64,000 nucleotides of DNA. It comes from Taiwanofungus camphoratus. Its lineage: Eukaryota > Basidiomycota > Agaricomycetes > Polyporales > Taiwanofungaceae. Of this stretch, positions 15,090 to 62,910 are shown one piece after another. The notes under the pieces are model-generated. The model was given only the letters and a program-made list of their open reading frames with translations, made no database searches and was not told the DNA's origin. How positions within the stretch are numbered: position 1 is the first letter of the stretch; each line of letters begins with the position of its first letter. The translations under genes and the position numbers were made by a program. Location of the stretch: positions 496,001 to 560,000 of the forward strand of contig CP021233.1 of NCBI GenBank assembly GCA_003999685.1, in the 5' to 3' direction.

Positions 15090-15830
15090 CTACAAGGATG
15101 TAGTCTGTGAGGATTTGACGACCTTTTCTGTGCCGGCTTCCGCAGCGCCAAGTTCCGTCTGCACAATCTGTTCACCCAGTGCCTTCACCTTGTCAGAACT
15201 TGTCGCCGAGCCGAGCCTCATCTGCTTCATAACGCTTTCAAGTGTCCTCTGACCTATCCCGACGGGTGCTCTGTGCCATCTTACCACTCGAATGCCCACC
15301 CCAGCCATTGCATGTTCCTCCAGATACTTTATCCAGCGGTCAACCACCTCCTGGTCGGCGTCCCATGCCTTGATTACCCGCTTGTGAACTCGACGTTCAA
15401 AATTCTCCTGCGACTTTTTGTGCGCGAATGGGCCCCTTGGCACTGTCCATAGTGATCGCTGCGTCGGAAGGCGTACGGGCCGCGATACAGGTATAGCGAG
15501 CGACGAAGCGGCGTGACTGGTGAAATGAATGAATTGGTCGAGAAGATTGGGGAAGTATGAGCGGAAGTGGATGAGGGCAACCGGAATGCCATGAGTTTTA
15601 GGATGGTAGTATGGCTCAGCGATACCACGGCCGTGAACAACAGTCGACGCCCATAGTCGTTCCGAAACCTGCGGGATGCTCTGCGAGACAGCAACTTCTC
15701 TGAACACGACGCTTTGACATTAGCTACAAATTCTCGTTATGGTGACAGCAGACACTCACGAGGATGTGCTACTCTGGCGAATCCATCGATGTGCTATTGC
15801 GAAGGCATTCTTACAGGACCGAGACAACAT
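15090..15830 (-). CDS. RSM10: Mitochondrial small-subunit ribosomal protein uS10m (S10)
   Basis: Two exons (15830-15760 and 15699-15090) give 226 codons plus stop. Exon 1 encodes a basic, serine-rich N-terminus (MLSRSCKNAFAIAHRWIRQS) typical of a mitochondrial targeting peptide. The intron has GTGAGT, a GCTAAT branch site and TTCAG. Exon 2 holds the S10 fold: HGIPVALIHFRSYFPNLLD, FTSHAASSLAIPVSRPVRLP, TQRSLWTVPRGPFAHKKSQE, FERRVHKRVIKAWDAD and a C-terminal MAGVGIRVVRW strand. The SRPV...LPT and KKSQENFERR stretches are hallmarks of uS10m. The protein sits in the head of the mitoribosomal small subunit. A lysine-containing tail of about 45 residues extends past the core. Confidence 0.93.
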
Positions 15831-22810: not shown

Positions 22811-24304
22811 ATGGCTGCTACTGCACCTCCCATGTCTGACGGTATTGGCATTGCCAACCTCCCCAACCAGGTGCGCACAGAACGGGCAAAATTTACCCAA
22901 TTCACTCTGACACGTCCATCCTTGTAGCGGCACAAGATTGTTGCCAAACGGGGGGCGCATTTCACGGTCATGGTCGTAGGTCAGTGCAAGAATCAATAAG
23001 GTTTCTGACATCGTTTCTCAGTGTTTTCTCAGGCGAGTCTGGTCTTGGAAAGACTACGCTCATCAATACGCTCTTTTCAACGGAACTCTCGCCGCCCAAG
23101 AACTACAATCGCCGTCACCAGAAGCAGTTGGACAAGCTGACCGAAGTCGAGATTATCAAGGCTGAACTCGAGGAGAAACAGTTTAAGACCAAGCTGACAG
23201 TCATCGACACGCCTGGCTTCGGTGACTACGTTAACAACCGCGACTCGTGGGCGCCCATTGTGGACTTCATCGACGACCAGCACGAAGCCTACATGCGCCA
23301 GGAACAACAGCCGCAGAGGCAGGAAAAGATTGATCTCAGAGTGCATGCTTGCCTGTACTTTATCAGGCCTACCGGTCACACGTGAGCTATGCTTCCCATG
23401 TCCGCGCACGCTGCTTCGTCTTATCCCGGCCGTTCCACTGTAGTCTGAAACCGTTGGACATCGAGATCATGAAGCGCCTGGGCACGCGCGTGAATCTCAT
23501 TCCGGTGGTCGCCAAGGCTGATACGCTCACACAGAACGACCTGTACACTTTCAAACAGCGTGTGCGTAGCCAGTTGCTCGCGTTTTTGTGTTTTGTTCTG
23601 ACGCTATGCAGATCCGAGAGGTCATCCAGGTGCAGGGCATCCGGATCTATCAGCCGCCTATCGAGCCCGATGACGAGATGGGCGCAGAGCATGCGCGCAT
23701 TTTGTCGGAGGCGATACCGTTCTCGATCATTGGCTCGACAGAGGACGTGACTACGGCCGATGGCCGTGTCGTGAAGGGTCGTGAATACTTGTGGGGTGTG
23801 GCCGAGGGTGAGTGGGGCTACCCGTGTTCATTGAGGAATTTGTTGACAGCTCTCCTCTGCAGTCGAAAACGAGAACCACTGCGATTTCCGAAAGCTGCGG
23901 TCGCTACTAATCCGCACTCACATGCTGGACCTGATCTCAACGACGGAGGATCTACACTACGAGAATTACCGGCAGGCGCAGATGGAGACGCGCAAGTTTG
24001 GAGAGCAGAAGCCGCGCAAGTTTGAGAACCCAAAGTTCAAGGAGGAGGAAGAGCAGCTCCGCAAGCGCTTCACGGAGCAGGTCAAAGCCGAGGAGGCCCG
24101 CTTCAGGCAGTGGGAACAGCACGTACGTTTTAAATGTCGTGCGGGTACTGCCGAGCGATAGACTGATTCGACGTTTGACAGCTAATCCAAGAACGAGACC
24201 GTCTCAACAAGGACCTCGAGATGGCACACAGTGCCATTAAGTCACTCGAAGCTGAGCTGGACAATCTACAGGTTGGCTACGGTAGGGGTACTAACAGGCG
24301 ATAG
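22811..24304 (+). CDS. Septin GTPase (Cdc3/Cdc12-type)
   Basis: Seven exons (22811-22870, 22928-22979, 23033-23381, 23444-23561, 23612-23807, 23863-24122, 24182-24304) sum to 386 codons. The product has the septin order: a [10 protein letters not shown] start, a basic KIVAKRG patch, the P-loop GESGLGKTT, the G3 motif [11 protein letters not shown], a [18 protein letters not shown] stretch, [20 protein letters not shown], the G4 motif VAKADTL, the septin unique element ending [20 protein letters not shown], and a C-terminal coiled coil ([20 protein letters not shown] onward). Septins form hetero-oligomeric filaments at the hyphal cortex and septa. By comparison with what I recall of fungal septins it belongs to the Cdc3/Cdc12 group, but I do not assign the exact orthologue. 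Confidence 0.96.
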
Positions 24305-24592: not shown

Positions 24593-26837
24593 CTATGGTC
24601 TCAACACTCCACGGTGCGCCTGGGCGAGGACCAGAGCGGCATCGCGCTTGTGTTCCGCTGCGTACGCCTGCCGAGTTCTTCTGCGCTCAGGGACTGGGAC
24701 ATCTTGGAAGTTCACCGCGGGGTTCTGCAACATCGCATACTGGTCCACGCTATGAATTTGAGACAGCGCTGGAGGTGGCGGTGGCCATGGCACACCGTCG
24801 GTGCGCATGCCGTGCTCGTCAAGCCCGAACACCTCGACCGCGTCCGAGATCTCCGCGTTCCTCGCGTCCACCTCGAACAGTTCTTTCACCTCCCCTGAGC
24901 GCGGATACCACTCCCCAACGCCCACCTTGATCAAGCGTTTCTCCAACGGAATGGGGTCTGCCAGCCCGTCGCCGCCGATGCTGCGGCCCTTGTCTTCCAT
25001 CCTGAAACGTATACCAACGAGACCTCCGCGTGCACCTTGCAGCAGGTGTGCGCAGTCCATTGCCAGCTTGTGCATGCGATTGAGGCGCAGATTGCGCATC
25101 CGTGTGGTGAACGATGCGTGGCACTTACGGTCCTCGTTCGTGACAGATGCATAGAACGGGAGACCCCGCTCGAGCCCACGCGAGAGCCGCGCCATGCTCA
25201 ATGCGAGCGGCCGTGTAGAGAAGGTGAACGAGAGTAGCGGTCGCCAAAAGGGTTCGGCTCCGAGTGTGGGGAGGTACTGAGAGCGGAGAGTACGCAAATT
25301 TTCGTCTACCACGTACTGCTCTGACGTTGCGTTGACGTCCCTGTCATCGTCATTGTTACCATCGTATTCGTCCATCTCCTGGCTGCGAGGGGTGGATTCG
25401 GCATTGGGTGATACTTTGAGACCATCGGTAAGAGCAGGCGCTATCATGTGAAATGCTTCGTCAGATATCGCTCTCGCACCCGTGCATGCACTGCTATGAA
25501 AGGTCCTTGAATTCTTGGTGTGTGGCACGTCCGTCCATGGCAACTTCGACGGCCCCTCCGCAGGCTTTGCTGCCACCGGATGGAAGTCGGTTTCGGCCGT
25601 GGGCGGTTCGAATCCACTCGCATGCCGCACCTTCCCGTCCTCTTCGACTACCTCAACTGGTATTTTCTCCTCGCGTGTACGCATCTGTGCTGAAAGCCCC
25701 TCGCTGAGGATCCCTGCATTCAGCTCGGCCATAAGACTCCCCTCCTCCTCCTTGCGTTCCTCAATATCGTCCCTCTGCCGTTTGCGCTCCACGTAATATG
25801 GAGGGACGACATCGTCTGGGTAGGCTGACTGGTTGGTAGAGCGGTGGGGCGAATCCCATGACGAGGTTGGTATCGTGCTGCGCGAAGCGGGCGAGGATGA
25901 AGTGTCACGGCCAGGCGCGTCAGCGACGGACGAACCCTGTTCCGCGGAATCGCTCTTTGAGCGCGAGGCGGAGCGGGGGATGGAGAAGTGGAAGGCGCGA
26001 CGTTGTGAGACAGATCCGCCGGCATTCGACGAGGGGTCGAGGATCTCCGTAACTATGAGTGAATTTCCTCGCGCCACAGGTCCTTGTTTCGAATGGTAAC
26101 TGGCCCCTGTGCTGCTGCCGGGAGCCGGAGTGACGGTACTAGCCTGGGCTTCTTCTCCTTCGAGCAGCTCACGCAGGACGTCGTCCGGGTTCTCCCCCTT
26201 CTTCCACCAGACCGTCCGCCTTAGCTTCTTCTGCGGCAACCACGGCCAGCGCGCGTTATCCATAGCCTCCCGGACCTCCGTCGGCGCACGCGTACTGTTC
26301 AGTCGCTGCAGAACTGCAGAGAAGTCCCCCTCCCTGCATACACCGACAAAGTGCTCGTGCGCGTCAACGCGCCCGATACCGTACTTGACGAGGTAGCGCG
26401 ATTCGAGTAAGAAAACGGTGTGTGGCTCGTAGGCGGCACGCGGAGGGAGCTCGTAGACCTTCTTGCGCTGGGCATACGCTCCACCAGGGAACCAGTTCGA
26501 GGCGCGCAGGTCTCTCGGTCGTGTAAAACCATCCATGTAACTGTAGAATATGAACATAAGTGGAGAGTAGAAGAATACGTCTTCCTGTAGACTGCTACAG
26601 TGAAGCCGAAAACACGTACGTCTTGACTGGAGTCAAAGCAGTGGTGATGTCCATCCTCTCATCGCGTTCGGCCTTCATCATTCGTCGTGCTATGACCCTA
26701 GTCTCCTCTTCCTCATTCACGAGAACGGATGCCTGACTGGCATCTCCTTCGTTACTCTTGCATATTGACTTGTGAAATTCCGAGCTTGCGAAACGTCTTG
26801 TGAGTCGTACCTTACTTAACTTCGAGCGAGGTAGCAT
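24593..26837 (-). CDS. Unknown protein, mitochondrial-type N-terminus, one copy of a ~100-residue module
   Basis: Two exons (26837-26620, 26540-24593) sum to 722 codons. The N-terminus (MLPRSKLSKVRLTRRFASSE) is basic with no acidic residue before the Glu at position 20, as in mitochondrial presequences. Next come conserved-looking segments: FTRPRDLRASNWFPGGAYAQ, FLLESRYLVKYGIGRVDAHE, RWPWLPQKKLRRTVWWKKGE, then a disordered linker. The module follows at about residues 299-397 (SSWDSP..., DDVVPPYYVERKRQRD, GSLMAELNAGILSEGLSAQM, EEKIPVEV, HASGFEPPTAETDFHPVAAK). A structured C-terminal part (PFWRPLLSFTFSTRPLALSM, NRMHKLAMDCAHLLQGARGG, VGVGEWYPRSGEVKELFEVD) ends the protein. I do not recognise the family. 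The downstream neighbour at 28309-29451 is a paralogue sharing presequence and module. The 289-bp gap to the septin stop makes the two genes tightly convergent. Confidence 0.8.
25565..25864 (-). repeat. Module copy 1 (within the 721-aa unknown protein)
   Basis: This segment encodes the single copy of the shared module: TSSWDSP, DDVVPPYYVERKRQRD, EERKEEEGSLMAELNAGILS, IPVEVVEEDGKVRHASGFEP, PTAETDFHPVAAK. It matches copies 2 and 3 in the neighbouring gene residue by residue over most of its length. Confidence 0.85.
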
Positions 26838-28308
26838 GGAGTGTCGAGTCGAAGTTACCTTGCTTGACAAGGCTTCCCAACGAGCTTATTTAATTCGTGT
26901 ATGGCTCATCTTACCGGCATAAAGTTTGAAGCTATTTGTCATGTGGCTCCGCAAGCGTCATTGCAAATCAGACTCTACCTCATCCAGTACTCTGGAAAGC
27001 CAGTCTCGACCTGACTAGCAGACGTATCTAGACTGTGTGATCACCCCTCCGACAAGAAAAACATGAAGATATAGAATGGGAGCCATAGTTTGACCATTTT
27101 GCAAACCGGTGTAAGCTCCTGCAACCAGTTTCTACCACGAGTATGATCACCGTTTTCTGTAGTTATACTCATATATCAATACAATCTCATATTGCACAGT
27201 CCGATTCACACTTTAGAACCCGTTCCGCATTGTTTTCCATTCCCGTGCTGTTTCTGCTGGCGCCTGGCAGCGGGAACTCTTCTGGGATCGACCGCCGTCT
27301 CGGCGCCTGTTTTTGATATCGATTATGATAGGGATAGCATGCACTCTCGCCTTCCATTGACTCAATTCTTGTTCCCGAAACCGTCGCGCTGTCAAGTACG
27401 CCAGCCCCGTATGTTGGCATTGTGAGCAAGGAAGCAGGCTGGTGAGCTCATGTGCAATAACGCGCTAACAACGTCTCCAACGTTTGATTGTGATCCAGTG
27501 GTCGGTTTACCGCCATGCGGTGAATGAGGGCCCACATATACACATCGCTCATGGCAACTCGCTCGTGTATTGTGAACACTGCACCCAGAAGATGAAGGCC
27601 AATTCAAGTTCGCATTTCTTTGCATTTATCTGTGGCTGACGCAAATTCTAGGAGTTCGTGGAACGGACACTCGCCACGATGTCCACATTCCACTGCTTGA
27701 GTACCCACCGATATCCACATAGACGTCTCCCGCGCGCACTTTCTCCACCAACGTCCGGCAAACGACCTTCCTTCACACTGCAAGTATGTCTTAGAAGACA
27801 TGCAGCTCTCGAAGGTGGGGGCATTTTGCATCTGAGTCCTCTGTGACTTCTTTACAGGATGTCCGTGTGTGTTTGGAGCATGTGTGCAATCTCTGCTTTA
27901 GGTTTCCTGGAAGACATTGATCTGAACTGTCTACCACTTCGTACTTATCTTCAAGCTTATGTCATCACAACACCGAGCTTAGGGTTAGGACCATCGCCTT
28001 GACGGCCTGTCAGTTAGCTGCTATCTGGGGGATAAGGCAAGTAGCGAATGGCGCGAATTGCCCAGTCAGGTCATAGGGATCTGACGTTGGCCTTCCCAAC
28101 AAGGCACAGATAGACCACGAATGCCTGACATCCGCACTGACTGCGAAAATTTCAACGAAAATTTGAGCGCAAAATTTTTCTGCTCATTCGAATGCAATCA
28201 TGTGCAATCATATCAATTCGAAACAATGCAGGGAATGACACAGCAAAGGTATAGCCAGACATGCATAGCGTACAAGTGAAGATAGAGCTGGTAAACCATG
28301 AACAATCA
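26838..28308. other. Intergenic, 1.5 kb, nothing recognised
   Basis: This lies between the two paralogous genes, upstream of one and downstream of the other. Short frames at 27187-27429 (both strands) and 27604-27846 have no recognisable motif. AT-rich with A/T runs near 28140-28180. Confidence 0.4.
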
Positions 28309-29451
28309 TTACGCTCCCCTCGCATTCTTCAAGGTAAGCACCTCCGTCCACAGCATCTTCATGGGTGCCTCCGCGGGCTTGGAAGCCATAGGGTGGAAGT
28401 CTGTCTCCGCGGTTGGTGGCTCGAAGCCGCTAGGGTGTCGCACCGTCCCATCTCGCTCTGCCACCTCGACCGGAATCTTCTCATCCCGCATGCGCATCTC
28501 CGCCGCGAGCCCGTCGCTCAGAATGCCAGCGTTCAGCTCAGCCATCAGGCTCCCCTCCTCTTCCTTGCGTTCCGCAACGGCATCGCGCTGGCGCTTGCGC
28601 TCGATGTAGTATGGCGGCACAACATCATCGGGGATTTGTGACTGACGAGTCGATCGACGGGGAGAGTCCCAAGACGATGTTGGAATAGAGCCGCGGGAGG
28701 AAGGAGTGGGTCGCGTAGCGTGGCTGAGCGAGTCAAACGTCCCCGACGGGCCTTGCTCGGTGCGCTGGTGGTTGACAAGAACAGAAGCGGCATCAACGTC
28801 CACATTGACCTTGCGCTTCTGGAAGTGTTTCTCGACGCTGGGGTCGGGACGCGACCTCCCCCTTGCGTTCACAGGTTGTGCATGCCACAGCTCCTTCACC
28901 GTCGTAAAGAGAGAACCAGGCTCATTAATTGTAGGCGTCTTCGCTGCAATAGGGTGGAAAAGCGTTTCTGGGGTAGGCGGCTGGAACCCGCTCGGATGGC
29001 TGATCGAGCCGTCGGGATGTCTGACCTCGACAGGGATCTTCTCTTCGCGCACTCTCGTCTGCGCAGCGACGCCCTCGCTGAGAATGCCAGCACTCAACTC
29101 GGCCATGAGCCCACCCTCCTCCTCCTCCTCCTCCTTCCGCTCGGCAACAGCGTCACGCTGCTTTTTGCGCTCGACGTAGTAAATCGGCACGACGTTGTCG
29201 TCAGCATCTTGGGATGCGCGCGGCGGGCGACTCCACGACGACGCGGGGATTTGGGCACGCTCGGCATAGGAGCCCGGAGAGCCAGCAATGTTTTCAGAAA
29301 CGTGAGTGGCGGAGCGACGACTGGAGAAGTGCACCGCGCGGTGGTGTGCTACAGAACTACTGGCAGCAGGTGAAGAGGTAAGCTCCGCTACACCCGCACC
29401 CGAGCAGCGCTTGGTGAGCTGAGCGGGATTGAGTTTTGTACGGGAGAACAT
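28309..29451 (-). CDS. Unknown protein, mitochondrial-type N-terminus, two tandem copies of the module
   Basis: This is one uninterrupted frame of 380 residues starting at ATG 29451. The N-terminus (MFSRTKLNPAQLTKRC) resembles that of the paralogue at 24593-26837 (M-x-R-x-K-L...L-T-R/K-R), consistent with a shared presequence. Module A spans about residues 70-171 (DNVVPIYYVERKKQRDAVAE, LMAELSAGILSEGVAAQ, EEKIPVEVRHPDGSISHPSG, TLFHPIAAK). Module B spans about 258-361 (DDVVPPYYIERKRQRDAVAE, GSLMAELNAGILSDGLAAEM, DEKIPVEVAERDGTVRHPSG, TDFHPMASK). A DAASVLVNHQR stretch between them resembles DASQASVLVNEE near the N-terminus of the paralogue, as if two shortened paralogue copies had been joined. 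The large C-terminal part of the paralogue is absent: the protein ends soon after LWTEVLTLKNARGA, which aligns with PWTDVPHTKNSRT of the other. Function unknown. Confidence 0.8.
   Translation of the reverse strand: MFSRTKLNPAQLTKRCSGAGVAELTSSPAASSSVAHHRAVHFSSRRSATHVSENIAGSPGSYAERAQIPASSWSRPPRASQDADDNVVPIYYVERKKQRDAVAERKEEEEEEGGLMAELSAGILSEGVAAQTRVREEKIPVEVRHPDGSISHPSGFQPPTPETLFHPIAAKTPTINEPGSLFTTVKELWHAQPVNARGRSRPDPSVEKHFQKRKVNVDVDAASVLVNHQRTEQGPSGTFDSLSHATRPTPSSRGSIPTSSWDSPRRSTRQSQIPDDVVPPYYIERKRQRDAVAERKEEEGSLMAELNAGILSDGLAAEMRMRDEKIPVEVAERDGTVRHPSGFEPPTAETDFHPMASKPAEAPMKMLWTEVLTLKNARGA
28369..28680 (-). repeat. Module copy 3 (module B of the 380-aa protein)
   Basis: The C-terminal copy of the shared module. 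It is closer to copy 1 in the neighbouring gene (EEGSLMAELNAGILS and GFEPPTAETDFHP are shared) than to the adjacent copy 2, suggesting that the intragenic duplication is not the most recent event or that conversion has acted. Confidence 0.8.
28939..29241 (-). repeat. Module copy 2 (module A of the 380-aa protein)
   Basis: The N-terminal copy, more divergent: VPIYYVERKKQRD, a longer Glu run before GGLMAELSAGILSEG, and GFQPPTPETLFHPIAAK in place of GFEPPTAETDFHP. Confidence 0.8.
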
Positions 29452-33465: not shown

Positions 33466-36317
<2,852 letters not shown>

Positions 36318-55971: not shown

Positions 55972-57924
55972 ATGGCCGTTTTTTTCCGACGACGTAGCCT
56001 CATACGTGTTTTTCTTTTTGCTGCTACTGTATTCCTTGTCCGGCTGTTCATTGTCTCCCCGTCTCCAGCATCGTCGGTATCCTCGTTTTACACGTCGAGG
56101 TCTCAGGAGATTCGGAAGCAAAACGTGCTTGACCTGGTCGCACGGTCGGATAAACCGCTTGATGCTCGGAAACACTCATTCCTGCAAGTTCGAATGGGGA
56201 GGGATGACAGGCCCGACCTCTTCAGCGATATAATCAGGGACGGAGTATTGGATTACTGGGAGAGATTTCAGAAGCCTTAGTGAGTTCCAGCCACGCCTCG
56301 AGCCCGCATTTTGTTCATTTTCCTCAGTATCGTTGGTCATGACACAGCTCATATGGACGAACAATCCGTTCTGTCCTCTATTGAGCAGCTTTTGACGTTG
56401 AACGGTTGGGTTGCTGCACTGTGTCCTACGCTGACTCGCCCGTTCGGCCAAAATAAGTATGAAGATGCTTATGAGGATCTTGCCAAGCAAGATCATCTCT
56501 ACTATATCGGCATGGTGATCCACTCTGCTGACCATTTCCTCGTGGACCAGTTGGCTGTCATCGTCCAGCTCGCGAAAAGGCTTGGGAATACAAACCTCTT
56601 CGTATCTATGCTGGATTACGACTCTTCAGATTCGACCTCAACGCTGACGGATTTGTGCGAGGCCGTTCTGACGCTTTTGGGAGTCCCGTTTCGTATCCGC
56701 AGAGTTCCTGGAATGACAGTCGATCCCGTCGCGGCCTATTATCCTCTGGAGGAAGCATATACCAGGAATCTGGTGTTGGAGCCTTTGCATGAACTGAACC
56801 AAAAGCGCAAAATCAAGTTCCATCGCGTTATTTGGCTCAAAGGCTTCACTTGTCCCAACGATATTTTGGAAACAATCAAACTGAGTATAGCAAATGAGGC
56901 GGCTATGGTGTGTGGGATGGATTGGGCAGAGCATAATGGCTTCTTCATTTTCTCTGATCGGTGAGCGGAGTCGATCATGGTCTTCTATTCTGGGCTATTG
57001 ATCTCGATGCTAGCTGGCGCACCCGCGATATCAACGGCGACCAGTTCCGTCAGTCGAAATCATCCTCTATATCGACATCCCCCCTCACATCAGTCCCGCC
57101 GCGTGACGTCGTCGGTGCTCAGCGCTACACTCAGCATCTTCCATTCCAAGTCTTCTGTTGTGAGTCTGGGACACACGTCGTGGACCCTGCTCAGTCATAC
57201 TATGCGGGCATCTCTTATCGTGCGGGGATGGATTTCCATAATGCAAGCACTCCGGCAGACCCGCCCGTTCGAGACCCGGAGGCAAAATGCTTGGACAGTG
57301 CACAGGCATGGTTCTGCAGGGACTTATGGGTGTGGAAAGCGAGAGAGGGCATGCGTGCCCTCGAGCCCGATTCGGACGACGAAGGTGCAGTTGCACGAAA
57401 TGGCCGCAAGGTGAAGCGGGATCCTGCTCCGGTTGACCCCGACGAGCCTCTGGCGCCTCGACAAGCAGGGAAGGAAGACCTGGATGCGAATGCAGGATCT
57501 GATTACGATGCTTCCGACCTCCCGCTTGCTGATCCGCCTCCCGCAGACTCACAAGACCCACAAGAGCTGACGATCCCTAACTCAGTCTTCCGCCCCGCAA
57601 GGATTCTCGTCAATCCTCGCTGTGTCACCACATATGCGGGTGTCTCGCACACGCAGCTCGCACTCGACCTATTTGGTCCACCGGACGAGGAGAGGGAGGC
57701 CCAGCTGAAAGGGAGAGACGTGTTGGATGAGTGGGAGGGCGCGCCGGATACTTTCGTGTGTCAAGAGCAGCAGTGAGTCATGTTTCTTTGTTACCTCATG
57801 GATGGTTGCTGACATTCGCATGTCTCTCGCCAGACGCACGGGCGGAAGGAGAGCCGCAAAAACGCAGAGACGGCTCAGCTTCTCGATTCATCGTGAGCTT
57901 GAGGAATCATTGTCGACATCATAG
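55972..57924 (+). CDS. CAP59/CMT1-type alpha-1,3-mannosyltransferase (GT69)
   Basis: Four exons (55972-56279, 56328-56960, 57014-57772, 57834-57924) sum to 597 codons. A cytoplasmic MAVFFRRRSLIR and a hydrophobic anchor (VFLFAATVFLVRLFIV) make it a type II Golgi or ER membrane protein. The lumenal catalytic region has YYIGMVIHSADHFLVDQLAV, NLFVSMLDYDSSDSTSTLTD, FRIRRVPGM, a KFHRVIWLKGFTCPNDILET stretch, EAAMVCGMDWAEHNGFFIFS, then RDINGDQFRQ and FQVFCCESGTHVVDPAQSYY. These are the conserved blocks of the Cryptococcus Cap59/Cmt1 family, which transfers mannose in extracellular polysaccharide or glycolipid synthesis. An insertion of about 90 acidic and Pro-rich residues (residues about 440-530) precedes NSVFRPARILVNPRCVTTYA, a typical family end. 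The C-terminus carries a basic RTGGRRAAKTQRR tail. Confidence 0.92.
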
Positions 57925-58580: not shown

Positions 58581-61500
58581 TTAGGATGCTGCAACCCCCA
58601 TCCCAGTACGGCAGAATGCAACTTTAGGTGCAGGTAGTGCCTTGGTTAGACAGTCTGCAAGCATGTCTGCGGTGGGAATGTATTCTGGCTGTATGTGACC
58701 AGATTCCACAGTGTTCCTAAGCCAGAAAGTGCGCAGGTCAAGGTGCTTCATCCGACCATGATGCTCTGGATTCTTTGACACATTGATGCTTGACTGGTTG
58801 TCCATTTCCAAGGGTGAGGCAGTGTCCACTTTGTATCCAAACTCAGTCATCAGATTGCGCATCCAGAGGATTTCTTTGCCAGCTTCAACTGCAGCAACAT
58901 ATTCAGCCTCTGTAGTTGAAAGTGCGACAATAGACTGGAGTTTGCTTGACCAACTGATTGCCCCAGATCCAACTTTGACAAGATAGCCACTAGTGGAGCG
59001 TCCGGTGTCTGGACAGTCACTATGTGCAGAGTCTGTGTAAGTCAGGAAAGGTGCACCCAAATCATCAGGCCTGTAGATGAGCTTGTGGTCCTTGGTGCCC
59101 TGCAAATAGCGAAAGAGGTGCTTGACTGCAGCCCAGTGAGCTGGTCCAGGGCAGGAATTGAAACGAGCAAGGCAGGAGACCGCATATTGAATGTCTGGAC
59201 GAGTCATGATAGCCAGATACATCAGAGAGCCAACTGCATTGAGATATGGCTTGTCCTTCATAAAGGCTCGATCCTCATCGCTCTGGCAGGCTTGTTCTTT
59301 GGAAAGATGAAGGCCAGGTTCCATTGGGGTCAGGACACTCTTGCAACTGGTCAGGCCATACCGCTCAAGCATATCTAGGATGTACTGGTGCTGAGACAAG
59401 AACATGGTGTGTTTTGAACGGTCTCTGGAGATTTCAATGCCCAACAAAAATGTGGTAGGGCCAAGATTGCGCAATTTAAAGTGCTGAGATAGTTGCTCAA
59501 TGGTTCTATCAATTGCAGCTTGTGATTTTGAGGCCAGAGTGAGGTCATCAACATGCACAGGGATGATTATGCGCACATCATCATGCAGATAGATGTAAAC
59601 ACTGCGATCTGACTCCAACCGCTTGAACCCCATGGAGGTGAGCACCTGATGTAGCTTCTTGTTCCACATGCGACCTGCCTGCTTGAGACCATAGATAGGA
59701 CGTCCAAGGCGTAGGACAGTGCCTGGAGGACCTTGAGGAAAGCCTTCTGGTTGCTGCATGTAGATCTCCTCTTCAAGATCACCTTGTAAAAATGCGGAGG
59801 AGATGTCCACAGAGTGAAGTTCCAGGTCTTCAATGGCAGAGAGTGCAAGGACAAGGCGCAGGGCAGCAGGGCGAGATGTGGGGGCAAAGACCTCAGTGTA
59901 GTCAAAACCAGGTCGCTGTGAATAGCCCTTGGCCACAAGACGAGCCTTGTATCGCTCAATTGAGCCATCTGCATTGTGTTTGACCTTGAACACCCATCCA
60001 CAGCCAATTGCCTTCTTTCCAGGAGGGAGAGGGACCGCATCCCAGGTATGGTTTGCAATCAAAGACATGATCTCCTCGTTGCAGGCTGTCTGCCATAACT
60101 TGGCATCAGGAGAATGCATTGCCTCACGGAAATTGTGAGGATCAGCATCAGCTGTAAGCCCAGCAAACTGCACTTCAACATAGTCCGCATCTGCACTAAG
60201 CAGATCAAGGGGATCAGGAGAGTCTTCGCGCTTTGGGACAGGAGCAGGAACTGAAGCATGGCGTCTTCCTCTGCGAATAGCAATAGGCAGATCAAGCTCA
60301 TTGACCTCAGGAGGAGGTTGAGGTGCAGAGGCAGGGGGTGGCTGAGCAGCTTGAGGCACAGGAGGCACAATGGGTGCAGGAGGCGCAGCTTGAACAGACA
60401 CTGGAGCAACTGGAGGAGGTGCAGCTGCAGGCACAGGCACAATAGGTGGCTCAGGTATGGCAGCAGGCACAGAGTCGACATCCCCCCCATGATCCAGTGC
60501 AGGTACAAAGAGAGGGACAGTCTCAGAAGTTGAAGGGTCAACAATTGGAGTAGAAAGTGAGGGAGGAGTGCGCTTGAGACCAGGGAAGTAGCGTTCATCA
60601 AATTCAGCACGCTCTGAAATTAGAACTCGCCTTGTATCAGGGCAGTAGAATTTCCAGCCCTTGTAGCCATCAGGGTAGCCAATGAACACGCATTTCTGCA
60701 TGTGAGGGGACAGTCCTTTGCGCTGGTCCTTTTGAATGTGCACATAGGCAGTGCAGCCCCAAACTCGAAGGTGTGCCACACTAGGCTTGTTCTTGTGCCA
60801 CAGCTCATAGGGTGTGGTTCCAGGTCGCACAGAAGTGGGCAAGCGATTCCAGACATGAACCATAGCAGCAACAGCTTCACCCCAGAAACTTGGAGGCAAA
60901 TTGGACTCTGCAAGCATGGCAGTAACAGTGTCAGACATGATCCCATTGGCTCGCTCTGCAACTCCATTCTGTTGTGGCCTATTGTGCACAGTGTGACGCC
61001 TCACAATGCCACAAGAGTCAGTAAAAGCAATGAACTCTTTGGACATGTATTCTCCTCCCTTGTCATCCTGTAATGCCTTTATTTTGGTGCTGAGCTGGTT
61101 CTCAGCATAGGCCTTGAACTGCTTGAACGCACTGAAGGCTTCACTTTTGGCTTTCAAAAGGATAACCACTCTGAATCTAGAGTAGTCATCGATGAAGGTG
61201 ATCCAGTAGCGGTAGCCTGAGTGTGTGCGGACAGGGAGAGGGCCATGGATATCAGTATGGACAAGTTCTAGAGGCTTTGAGGATGTGTGATTGGAGGGAG
61301 GGAAGGGGTTGGCTCGCATTTTGCCTGCCAGGCAAGGCTCACAGACAGGATCAGGCTGCTGCTTTGAGTTGAGAGTTAGACCAGTGACCAGGTCGTCTTT
61401 GACAAGCTTCTGGACATCTGCATGATTATTGTGAGCAAGACGACGGTGCCAGAGACTGAGATCAAGTGGTAGAGTGGCTGCAAGGCATGCAGATGCCTCA

Positions 61501-62768
61501 AAATAAGGCTCAACTTCACCATCCAAGTAGGCAGCATTGTTGGAATCTATTGGTGCCACAAAGCGCAGTGTGCCAGTCTGGTAGAAGGCAATGGCATCTG
61601 AAGAGATGTTGATGGAAAATCCTTTATTCCGGGCAAGATAAAGACATGACAGAAGATTACTGCGCAGGTCAGGCACATGCAGGACCCTCGAAAATTCCAC
61701 AGCCCGCAGAAATGCTCCCTTCACCCTAGGTCTGAAGATGACCGACCCAACTCCAGCAGAATAGACAACATTGTTGTCTGCCAGCTTCACAGGAATGCGC
61801 AGGGGCTTATAATTGCGAAGCCAGTGGCGATGGGGCGTCATATGAGAAGTGGCGCCTGTGTCTGCATTCCAGGTGAAGTCAGCATCATGCTGAAGCGGTG
61901 TAAAGGGTGAGGAGGGCTCAGGTGAATTGGAACTTGCATTTGCAGCAGCTTCCTGAGTGGGTTCTTCTGTCTTGGTCTGTGCAGTATTGGCCTTTCCTTT
62001 GCCTCTGGTGGCACGACGCTCCTTGGCCTGTTTTTGCGCCTTCTGGAATGAGTAGCACTGTGGCTGAGTGTGGCCAGGTGCACCACAGAAGTCACAGGGG
62101 CCAGAGGACGATGAAGTGGCTGCCAGAGCGGTCTGAGATGAGATAGAGGACTCATGGCGGCGTTGGGCATCCTCAGTAACAAAGGCCTGAATGACCGTTT
62201 CCTTTTTGAGGTCACCATTGAGGAGCTGAGAGCGCAGTAGGGCAAACTCCTCTCTAGGCAGGGCAAGGATCATGGCCATGACAGTCAGCTCCTTGTCCAG
62301 ATCCTCCAAAGTGTAGTGGTCAGGACGCAGGTTCTTGCATTGCTGCATGGCATCTTCAGCACGATTAATGACGGTCTGAAGCGAGTCAGAGTCTCCTTTT
62401 CTGATGGACAGGAGCGATTCCCAAGCATTCCAGCGCGCAGCAGGATGCTTGCGCTGGTGAGCATTCTTGAGAGTAGCCCACATCTTGACAGGGTCACTGT
62501 CAATGCCAGAAAAATGCACCTTTTGGTCCGCTTCCACCATCAAATACAGCCATCCAGCTGCCTTGGCCTCCTGCACCTCCCAAGCTTCGAGTTTTGTGGC
62601 CTCAGCATCAGTGGGTGCCTTGACATCCTTGGGGGTAGGTTTGGGGTATGCCCCAGAAACAAGACGCCATAGGCCTGCAGAGCGCAGCCAGGCAGTCATA
62701 TCCCCAGCCCAGGACTTGTAGTTCGATGCATTGAGCTTTGGAAATGAAGGGGAGGACGAGTTTGACAT
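58581..62768 (-). CDS. Copia gag-pol polyprotein
   Basis: One open frame of 1395 codons from the ATG giving MSNSSSPSFPKLNASNYKSW. In order: a Gag region of the UBN2/Copia type (LNASNYKSWAGDM, KNAHQRKHPA), a CCHC zinc knuckle near residues 225-238 (CDFCGAPGHTQPQC), an aspartic protease site (WNADTGATSHMT), the GAG-pre-integrase segment (LDLSLWHRRLAHNNHADVQK), integrase core (PLELVHTDIHGPLPVRTHSG, DDKGGEYMSKEF, RPQQNGVAERANGIM), a Pro/Ala-rich linker, reverse transcriptase (GCGWVFKVKHNADGSIERYK, LHSVDISSAFLQGDLEEEIY, YGLKQAGRMW, VHVDDLTLAS) and RNase H (TYTDSAHSDCPDTGRSTSGY, ALSTTEAEYVAAVEAGKEIL). As in other single-frame copia elements, Gag and Pol products would be released by the element's own protease. 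Confidence 0.95.
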   Translation of the reverse strand: MSNSSSPSFPKLNASNYKSWAGDMTAWLRSAGLWRLVSGAYPKPTPKDVKAPTDAEATKLEAWEVQEAKAAGWLYLMVEADQKVHFSGIDSDPVKMWATLKNAHQRKHPAARWNAWESLLSIRKGDSDSLQTVINRAEDAMQQCKNLRPDHYTLEDLDKELTVMAMILALPREEFALLRSQLLNGDLKKETVIQAFVTEDAQRRHESSISSQTALAATSSSSGPCDFCGAPGHTQPQCYSFQKAQKQAKERRATRGKGKANTAQTKTEEPTQEAAANASSNSPEPSSPFTPLQHDADFTWNADTGATSHMTPHRHWLRNYKPLRIPVKLADNNVVYSAGVGSVIFRPRVKGAFLRAVEFSRVLHVPDLRSNLLSCLYLARNKGFSINISSDAIAFYQTGTLRFVAPIDSNNAAYLDGEVEPYFEASACLAATLPLDLSLWHRRLAHNNHADVQKLVKDDLVTGLTLNSKQQPDPVCEPCLAGKMRANPFPPSNHTSSKPLELVHTDIHGPLPVRTHSGYRYWITFIDDYSRFRVVILLKAKSEAFSAFKQFKAYAENQLSTKIKALQDDKGGEYMSKEFIAFTDSCGIVRRHTVHNRPQQNGVAERANGIMSDTVTAMLAESNLPPSFWGEAVAAMVHVWNRLPTSVRPGTTPYELWHKNKPSVAHLRVWGCTAYVHIQKDQRKGLSPHMQKCVFIGYPDGYKGWKFYCPDTRRVLISERAEFDERYFPGLKRTPPSLSTPIVDPSTSETVPLFVPALDHGGDVDSVPAAIPEPPIVPVPAAAPPPVAPVSVQAAPPAPIVPPVPQAAQPPPASAPQPPPEVNELDLPIAIRRGRRHASVPAPVPKREDSPDPLDLLSADADYVEVQFAGLTADADPHNFREAMHSPDAKLWQTACNEEIMSLIANHTWDAVPLPPGKKAIGCGWVFKVKHNADGSIERYKARLVAKGYSQRPGFDYTEVFAPTSRPAALRLVLALSAIEDLELHSVDISSAFLQGDLEEEIYMQQPEGFPQGPPGTVLRLGRPIYGLKQAGRMWNKKLHQVLTSMGFKRLESDRSVYIYLHDDVRIIIPVHVDDLTLASKSQAAIDRTIEQLSQHFKLRNLGPTTFLLGIEISRDRSKHTMFLSQHQYILDMLERYGLTSCKSVLTPMEPGLHLSKEQACQSDEDRAFMKDKPYLNAVGSLMYLAIMTRPDIQYAVSCLARFNSCPGPAHWAAVKHLFRYLQGTKDHKLIYRPDDLGAPFLTYTDSAHSDCPDTGRSTSGYLVKVGSGAISWSSKLQSIVALSTTEAEYVAAVEAGKEILWMRNLMTEFGYKVDTASPLEMDNQSSINVSKNPEHHGRMKHLDLRTFWLRNTVESGHIQPEYIPTADMLADCLTKALPAPKVAFCRTGMGVAAS

Positions 62769-62910
62769 TTGTAGCCCAGATAGAAAGGAATGAGTAAGAA
62801 CAGGATTTGGGATGATTTGAACAAGATGTTGTATGGGGACAAAGCAGTGTCCCAAAAATCGAAAGAGATCGTCTGTGATGCGCTAGTAGTGTGTGTAATA
62901 GACTGCTATA

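Follow-up and report, generated by a model that had tools for sequence, protein, structure and literature searches.

A duplicated, probably helical module in two adjacent genes of Taiwanofungus camphoratus with mitochondrial-type sequence features

In Taiwanofungus camphoratus, two neighbouring genes raise the question of what a module is that stands once in a predicted protein of 721 amino acids (gene 1, p721) and twice in one of 380 amino acids (gene 2, p380), and how these genes are related. We analysed a window of 64,000 nucleotides of contig CP021233.1, that is, the whole stretch of DNA considered here; coordinates count from its first letter (Table 1).

Gene models and the shared module

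The two genes are adjacent and both are encoded on the minus strand. Exon 2 of gene 1 contains 647 stop-free codons counted from its first ATG, which exceeds the chance maximum of 393 stop-free codons in 60 sequences of 64 kb drawn from a first-order Markov model and read in three frames of one strand. The 380-codon frame of gene 2 falls within this chance range, so the reality of gene 2 rests on the substitution pattern of its modules described below. Antisense to gene 2, a 243-aa open frame was seen (28642..29373, plus strand), probably a by-product of codon composition. A septin gene (PF00735 in two open frames, hence at least two exons; 22840..24161, plus strand) is convergent with gene 1.

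Table 1. Coordinates of genes 1 and 2, of the module copies and of the presequence-type motifs in the window
Feature	Position	Strand	Remarks
Gene 1	26837..24593	-	721 aa once the single 79-bp GT-AG intron is spliced out
Gene 1, exon 1	26620..26837	-	residues 1-72 and part of codon 73; basic N-terminus
Gene 1, intron	26541..26619	-	79 bp, GTACGT...TACAG, putatively of spliceosomal type
Gene 1, exon 2	24593..26540	-	N-domain, module M1, C-domain, stop
RAFHFS motif, p721 254-259	25982..25999	-	upstream of M1; pattern scan, coordinates by arithmetic
Module copy M1, p721 296-405	25544..25873	-	alignment
RTFHSS motif, p721 418-423	25490..25507	-	between M1 and C-domain; pattern scan, coordinates by arithmetic
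Gene 1, C-terminal part, p721 435-721	24596..25456	-	no family in Pfam/PDB searches
Gene 2	28309..29451	-	380 aa, intronless, two modules
RAVHFS motif, p380 38-43	29323..29340	-	precedes M2a and pairs with the gene 1 RAFHFS in the alignment
Module copy M2a, p380 68-178	28918..29250	-	alignment
Module copy M2b, p380 256-365	28357..28686	-	alignment

An earlier note on this DNA had placed one copy of the module in the larger protein and two in the smaller one, and alignment, BLASTP and a profile search of the window all agree with this count. The copies are 110-111 residues long and 63 of the 113 alignment columns are invariant among the three. M1 and M2b are 81% identical, and M2a is 63% identical to either of them. 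The three pairs scored 132, 137 and 188 bits in BLASTP, whereas M2b against 60 shuffled versions of M2a never gave more than 19.6 bits. When the profile of the three copies was run on all six frames of the window, exactly three copies were recovered, the next match having an E value of 1.1. The landmarks described as fixed are mostly right, but two of them are not strictly so, as M2b reads YYIERK and DEKIPVEV. M2a carries three additional Glu residues.

By comparison of the two sequences, genes 1 and 2 were shown to share the module together with the segment preceding it; the N-terminus is shared too, though with weaker support. The segment upstream of M1 (RRAFHFSIPRSA) resembles the one upstream of M2a (HRAVHFSSRRSA) and not the one upstream of M2b; at the DNA level the pre-module segments of the two genes are 75% identical across 48 bp (E 6e-4). 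Downstream of the module the homology ends at KNSR in gene 1 and at KNARGA, followed by the stop, in gene 2. The shared N-terminus claimed previously is supported: aligning residues 1-25 of the two proteins gave a score of 36, which none of 2000 shuffles reached (maximum 34), though the same piece had an E value of only 0.43 in whole-protein BLASTP, and gene 2 was not among the matches of a phmmer search with the gene 1 N-domain (E up to 1). The ASVLVN stretch, also put forward as a link, is indeed present in both proteins, but as a mark of common descent it is weak. It lies near the N-terminus in gene 1 and between the modules in gene 2, some 6-mer was common to both proteins in 20 of 5000 shuffles, and the local alignment of this region was unremarkable (15% of 1000 shuffles were equally good).

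That the smaller gene lacks the C-terminal domain of its partner was likewise found when the window was searched with tblastn and phmmer; the region around residues 74-252 of gene 1 is missing from it as well. Searching the window with the C-domain by tblastn (E up to 1) turned up no further match. A GIR..KGR..GG stretch had prompted a comparison of this C-domain with the C-terminal domain of ribosomal protein uS3. The best BLASTP match to E. coli uS3 had an E value of 1.9 and the prompting stretch one of 6.0, and pieces of the C-domain matched zero Pfam families; the idea is not supported.

The Pfam scans covered the 380-aa protein, both exons of gene 1 and pieces, the 721-aa protein thus being scanned in parts, and nothing reached the curated cut-off for either gene. 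Sub-threshold matches to ERCC4 (14.2 of 24 bits) and PhiKZ_gp244 (12 of 27 bits) were taken as chance. The same applies to the PDB matches found by sequence (urease gamma, 0.064 at best; NS3, NUDT5, phage portal, CF6), and the module profile had no match in the PDB. Viral contigs, prokaryote genomes and plasmids gave zero matches, which is expected for a fungal family and uninformative on fungi. In the literature, the motif strings of the module were unmatched and, judged by title and start of the abstract, no relevant paper on such a fungal family appeared. Within the libraries searched, the statement that the module is not a known domain therefore stands. It might still be a family already present in fungal databases or a known domain diverged too far, which would be compatible with any of the readings discussed below; the search scope (non-fungal collections, Pfam and PDB) and the weakness of a profile from three similar sequences leave room for this, but with nothing above cut-off in the Pfam scans or for the profile against the PDB we regard it as rather improbable.

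Age of the copies and predicted structure of the module

Between M1 and M2b, 93 of 330 bases differ, 68 of them at third codon positions, and dN is about 0.12. For the remaining two module pairs the counts are 120 and 117 of 324 bases, third positions making up 63 and 67 of these, and dN is 0.26-0.31. Estimates of dS were 3.0 (ML) or undefined (NG86) for M1/M2b, 3.7 (NG86) or 27 (ML) for M1/M2a, and undefined (NG86) or 26 (ML) for M2a/M2b, which we read as saturation of the synonymous sites. Saturated synonymous sites together with dN of 0.12-0.31 indicate paralogues that are old and under selection, which does not fit a truncated copy of recent date. Purifying selection has maintained the module at the protein level, and the copies are read as free of recent levelling by gene conversion. 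The duplication proposed before is supported by the identities and the invariant columns, and the duplications are old.

Gene 2 as a decaying, truncated, recent duplicate of gene 1 would account for its missing N- and C-domains, and a frame of chance-range length would fit it too. This is contradicted by third positions that are saturated while the protein identity stays at 63-81%, and by the absence from the window of a second C-domain match, so that we consider it extremely improbable.

The earlier note had further suggested a folded unit. In the AlphaFold2 model built from the alignment of the three copies (mean pLDDT 62, pTM 0.26), one 43-residue helix spans residues 25-67, the highest block mean within it being 88; outside the helix only a pairing of two-residue strands and low-confidence ends were predicted. 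A single-sequence model of gene 1 from the exon-2 ATG had a mean pLDDT of 38, and its 10-residue blocks averaging above 70 were confined to the module helix. Although an alignment of three is too shallow for excluding a fold, a compact duplicated domain finds no support in a model with a lone helix and low-confidence tails, and the module more probably forms an extended, charged helix than a compact domain.

Presequence-type features and internal sites

The proteins had been called mitochondrial-type on account of their N-termini. For gene 1 this agrees with the sequence features: the first 30 residues carry a net charge of +6, and RRFASS in exon 1 fits the Icp55-type consensus, given as RX(F/Y/I/L)↓(S/A)(S/T) (PMC8847149). 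The N-terminus of gene 2 is the weaker one, with a moderate charge of +3 in 30 residues; the list of basic, acid-poor stretches did not include it, and the pattern scan found no consensus presequence site in it. A loose R-3-type pattern was not enriched, with two matches in gene 1 (shuffle mean 1.6) and none in gene 2.

Two R.FH.S motifs, at residues 254 and 418, bracket the module segment of gene 1, and the second sits where the homology to gene 2 ends. Shuffled versions of gene 1 contained this pattern 0.005 times on average and two copies of it in 0 of 5000 cases, figures that overstate the surprise because the pattern was chosen after the sequence had been seen. These internal motifs resemble Oct1-type presequence sites; Oct1 takes off eight residues after MPP, where Arg stands at position -10 (PMC8847149). 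At all three sites, RAFHFS, RTFHSS and RAVHFS, the presumed octapeptide is followed by Ala. In gene 2 the strict R.FH.S is absent, the stretch separating M2a from M2b lacks such a site, and RAVHFS is matched only once the pattern is widened (2.5% of 5000 shuffles).

A loose R-10 pattern matched gene 1 eight times (shuffle mean 1.9; 0.02% of 5000 shuffles), at positions 14, 82, 196, 254, 418, 516, 527 and 608. Three of these matches fall within the presumed C-domain, and six lie away from the R.FH.S sites, including the N-terminal RRFASS. Gene 2 had no match (shuffle mean 0.8). The hydrophobic moment of the segment near 245 of gene 1 is low (0.22), and the charge scan listed no basic, acid-poor stretch near 418.

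Composite precursor or ordinary paralogues

Altogether, the reading that we tentatively prefer, at somewhat less than an even chance, is that the module serves mitochondrial precursors as a linear binding element of helical character and that gene 1 is composite and may be cut internally. Both genes would encode nuclear-encoded mitochondrial precursors, and the module would dock on a partner instead of forming a free-standing globular domain. Its order of elements would be a Pro/Ser-rich entry with IPxSSW, the charged helix of about 40 residues and a conserved tail, EKIPVEV..DG..H.SGF.PPT.ET.FHP. Less certain than these points is the composite nature of gene 1, in which the N-domain would be followed by module and C-domain. 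Putative presequence-type sites would head these later parts, RA↓FHFSIPRS↓A the module and RT↓FHSSACTG↓A the C-domain, and MPP and Oct1 might set both parts free in the matrix, comparable to Arg5,6 by MPP. Gene 2 would carry the module twice and dispense with the N- and C-domain. Localisation and cutting we infer from sequence features. Module identity, selection, the shared N-terminus, the R.FH.S motifs with RAVHFS and the Ala that follows, RRFASS, the helix and fungal precedent were counted for this composite reading. Counted against it were the choice of the R.FH.S pattern in view of the sequence, the low moment near 245, the lack of a listed basic stretch near 418, the scattered R-10 matches, the unenriched R-3-type pattern, the moderate N-terminus of gene 2, the N-terminal similarity that BLASTP and phmmer hardly register, and the absence of a strict R.FH.S from gene 2.

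The precedent is Arg5,6 of Saccharomyces cerevisiae, described as a tandem mitochondrial precursor with an internal cut by MPP (PMC8847149, PMC8835746), and the composite precursors Atp25, Etp1 and Rsm22-Cox11 (S. pombe) are reported to bear similar motifs (PMC8847149). Like Arg5,6 as described there, gene 1 would have presequence-like sites inside one frame, ahead of its later parts; however, Arg5,6 yields two known enzymes and its cutting has been shown, whereas the parts of gene 1 match no family and their cutting is a proposal. With the other three, as PMC8847149 presents them, gene 1 would have in common a composite build, internal targeting-like sequences, candidate MPP sites and fungal origin. 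The parts of Rsm22-Cox11, Atp25 and Etp1 are recognisable, unlike those of gene 1. Small mitochondrial accessory and assembly proteins form a class that is short, charged and helical; the module likewise is short, charged and predicted to be helical without a globular domain, but no sequence match to any member of this class was found in Pfam or PDB.

Fungi commonly have mitochondrial proteins that are lineage-specific and uncharacterised. The two genes could well, with a probability not far below one half, encode ordinary paralogous mitochondrial proteins from a fungal family of unknown function. Gene 1 would then be an uncut multidomain protein and the module a helical segment of a subunit or assembly factor, for example of the mitoribosome or a respiratory complex. 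The evidence for paralogy and selection fits this equally, the loose R-10 matches are scattered across gene 1, and most multidomain mitochondrial proteins escape internal cutting; two strict R.FH.S motifs at the edges of the module segment are, on the other hand, unexpected by chance. Proteins that are not mitochondrial at all, with coincidental basic N-termini and R.FH.S motifs, seem distinctly unlikely: localisation was read from sequence features only, gene 2 has an N-terminus of moderate quality and enrichment of the RRFASS-type pattern was not seen, but the N-termini of both genes are alike and the R.FH.S count exceeds that of the shuffles.

If the composite reading holds and the cutting is real, gene 1 would add a further fungal composite mitochondrial precursor, made of three parts, the middle one being a module also found doubled next door. 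If it is not, there are still two mitochondrial-type paralogues under selection for which Pfam and PDB offer no match. Going further, and in our view unlikely, gene 1 might be a three-part mitochondrial polyprotein from which the module is excised as a separate mature helical protein, with gene 2 giving a doubled version. One uncharacterised matrix factor would then be made in single, tandem and fused forms, and module dose would be coupled to two other unknown mitochondrial proteins.

Elsewhere in the window, a protein of the Ribosomal_S10 family (PF00338, E 1.8e-32) is encoded at 15090..15719 on the minus strand and has extensions, possibly being a mitochondrial uS10. On the plus strand, a frame at 34050..35198 with a helicase C-terminal domain (PF00271, E 9.5e-09) probably belongs to a DEAH-box helicase, and a CAP59_mtransfer gene (PF11735, cryptococcal mannosyltransferase 1 family, E 3.3e-23) lies at 56284..56961. 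This gene, the septin gene and the spliceosomal-type intron of gene 1 by themselves already point to probably fungal DNA. The uninterrupted 1433-aa frame at 58581..62882 (minus strand) looks by eye like a Ty1/copia-type retrotransposon polyprotein.
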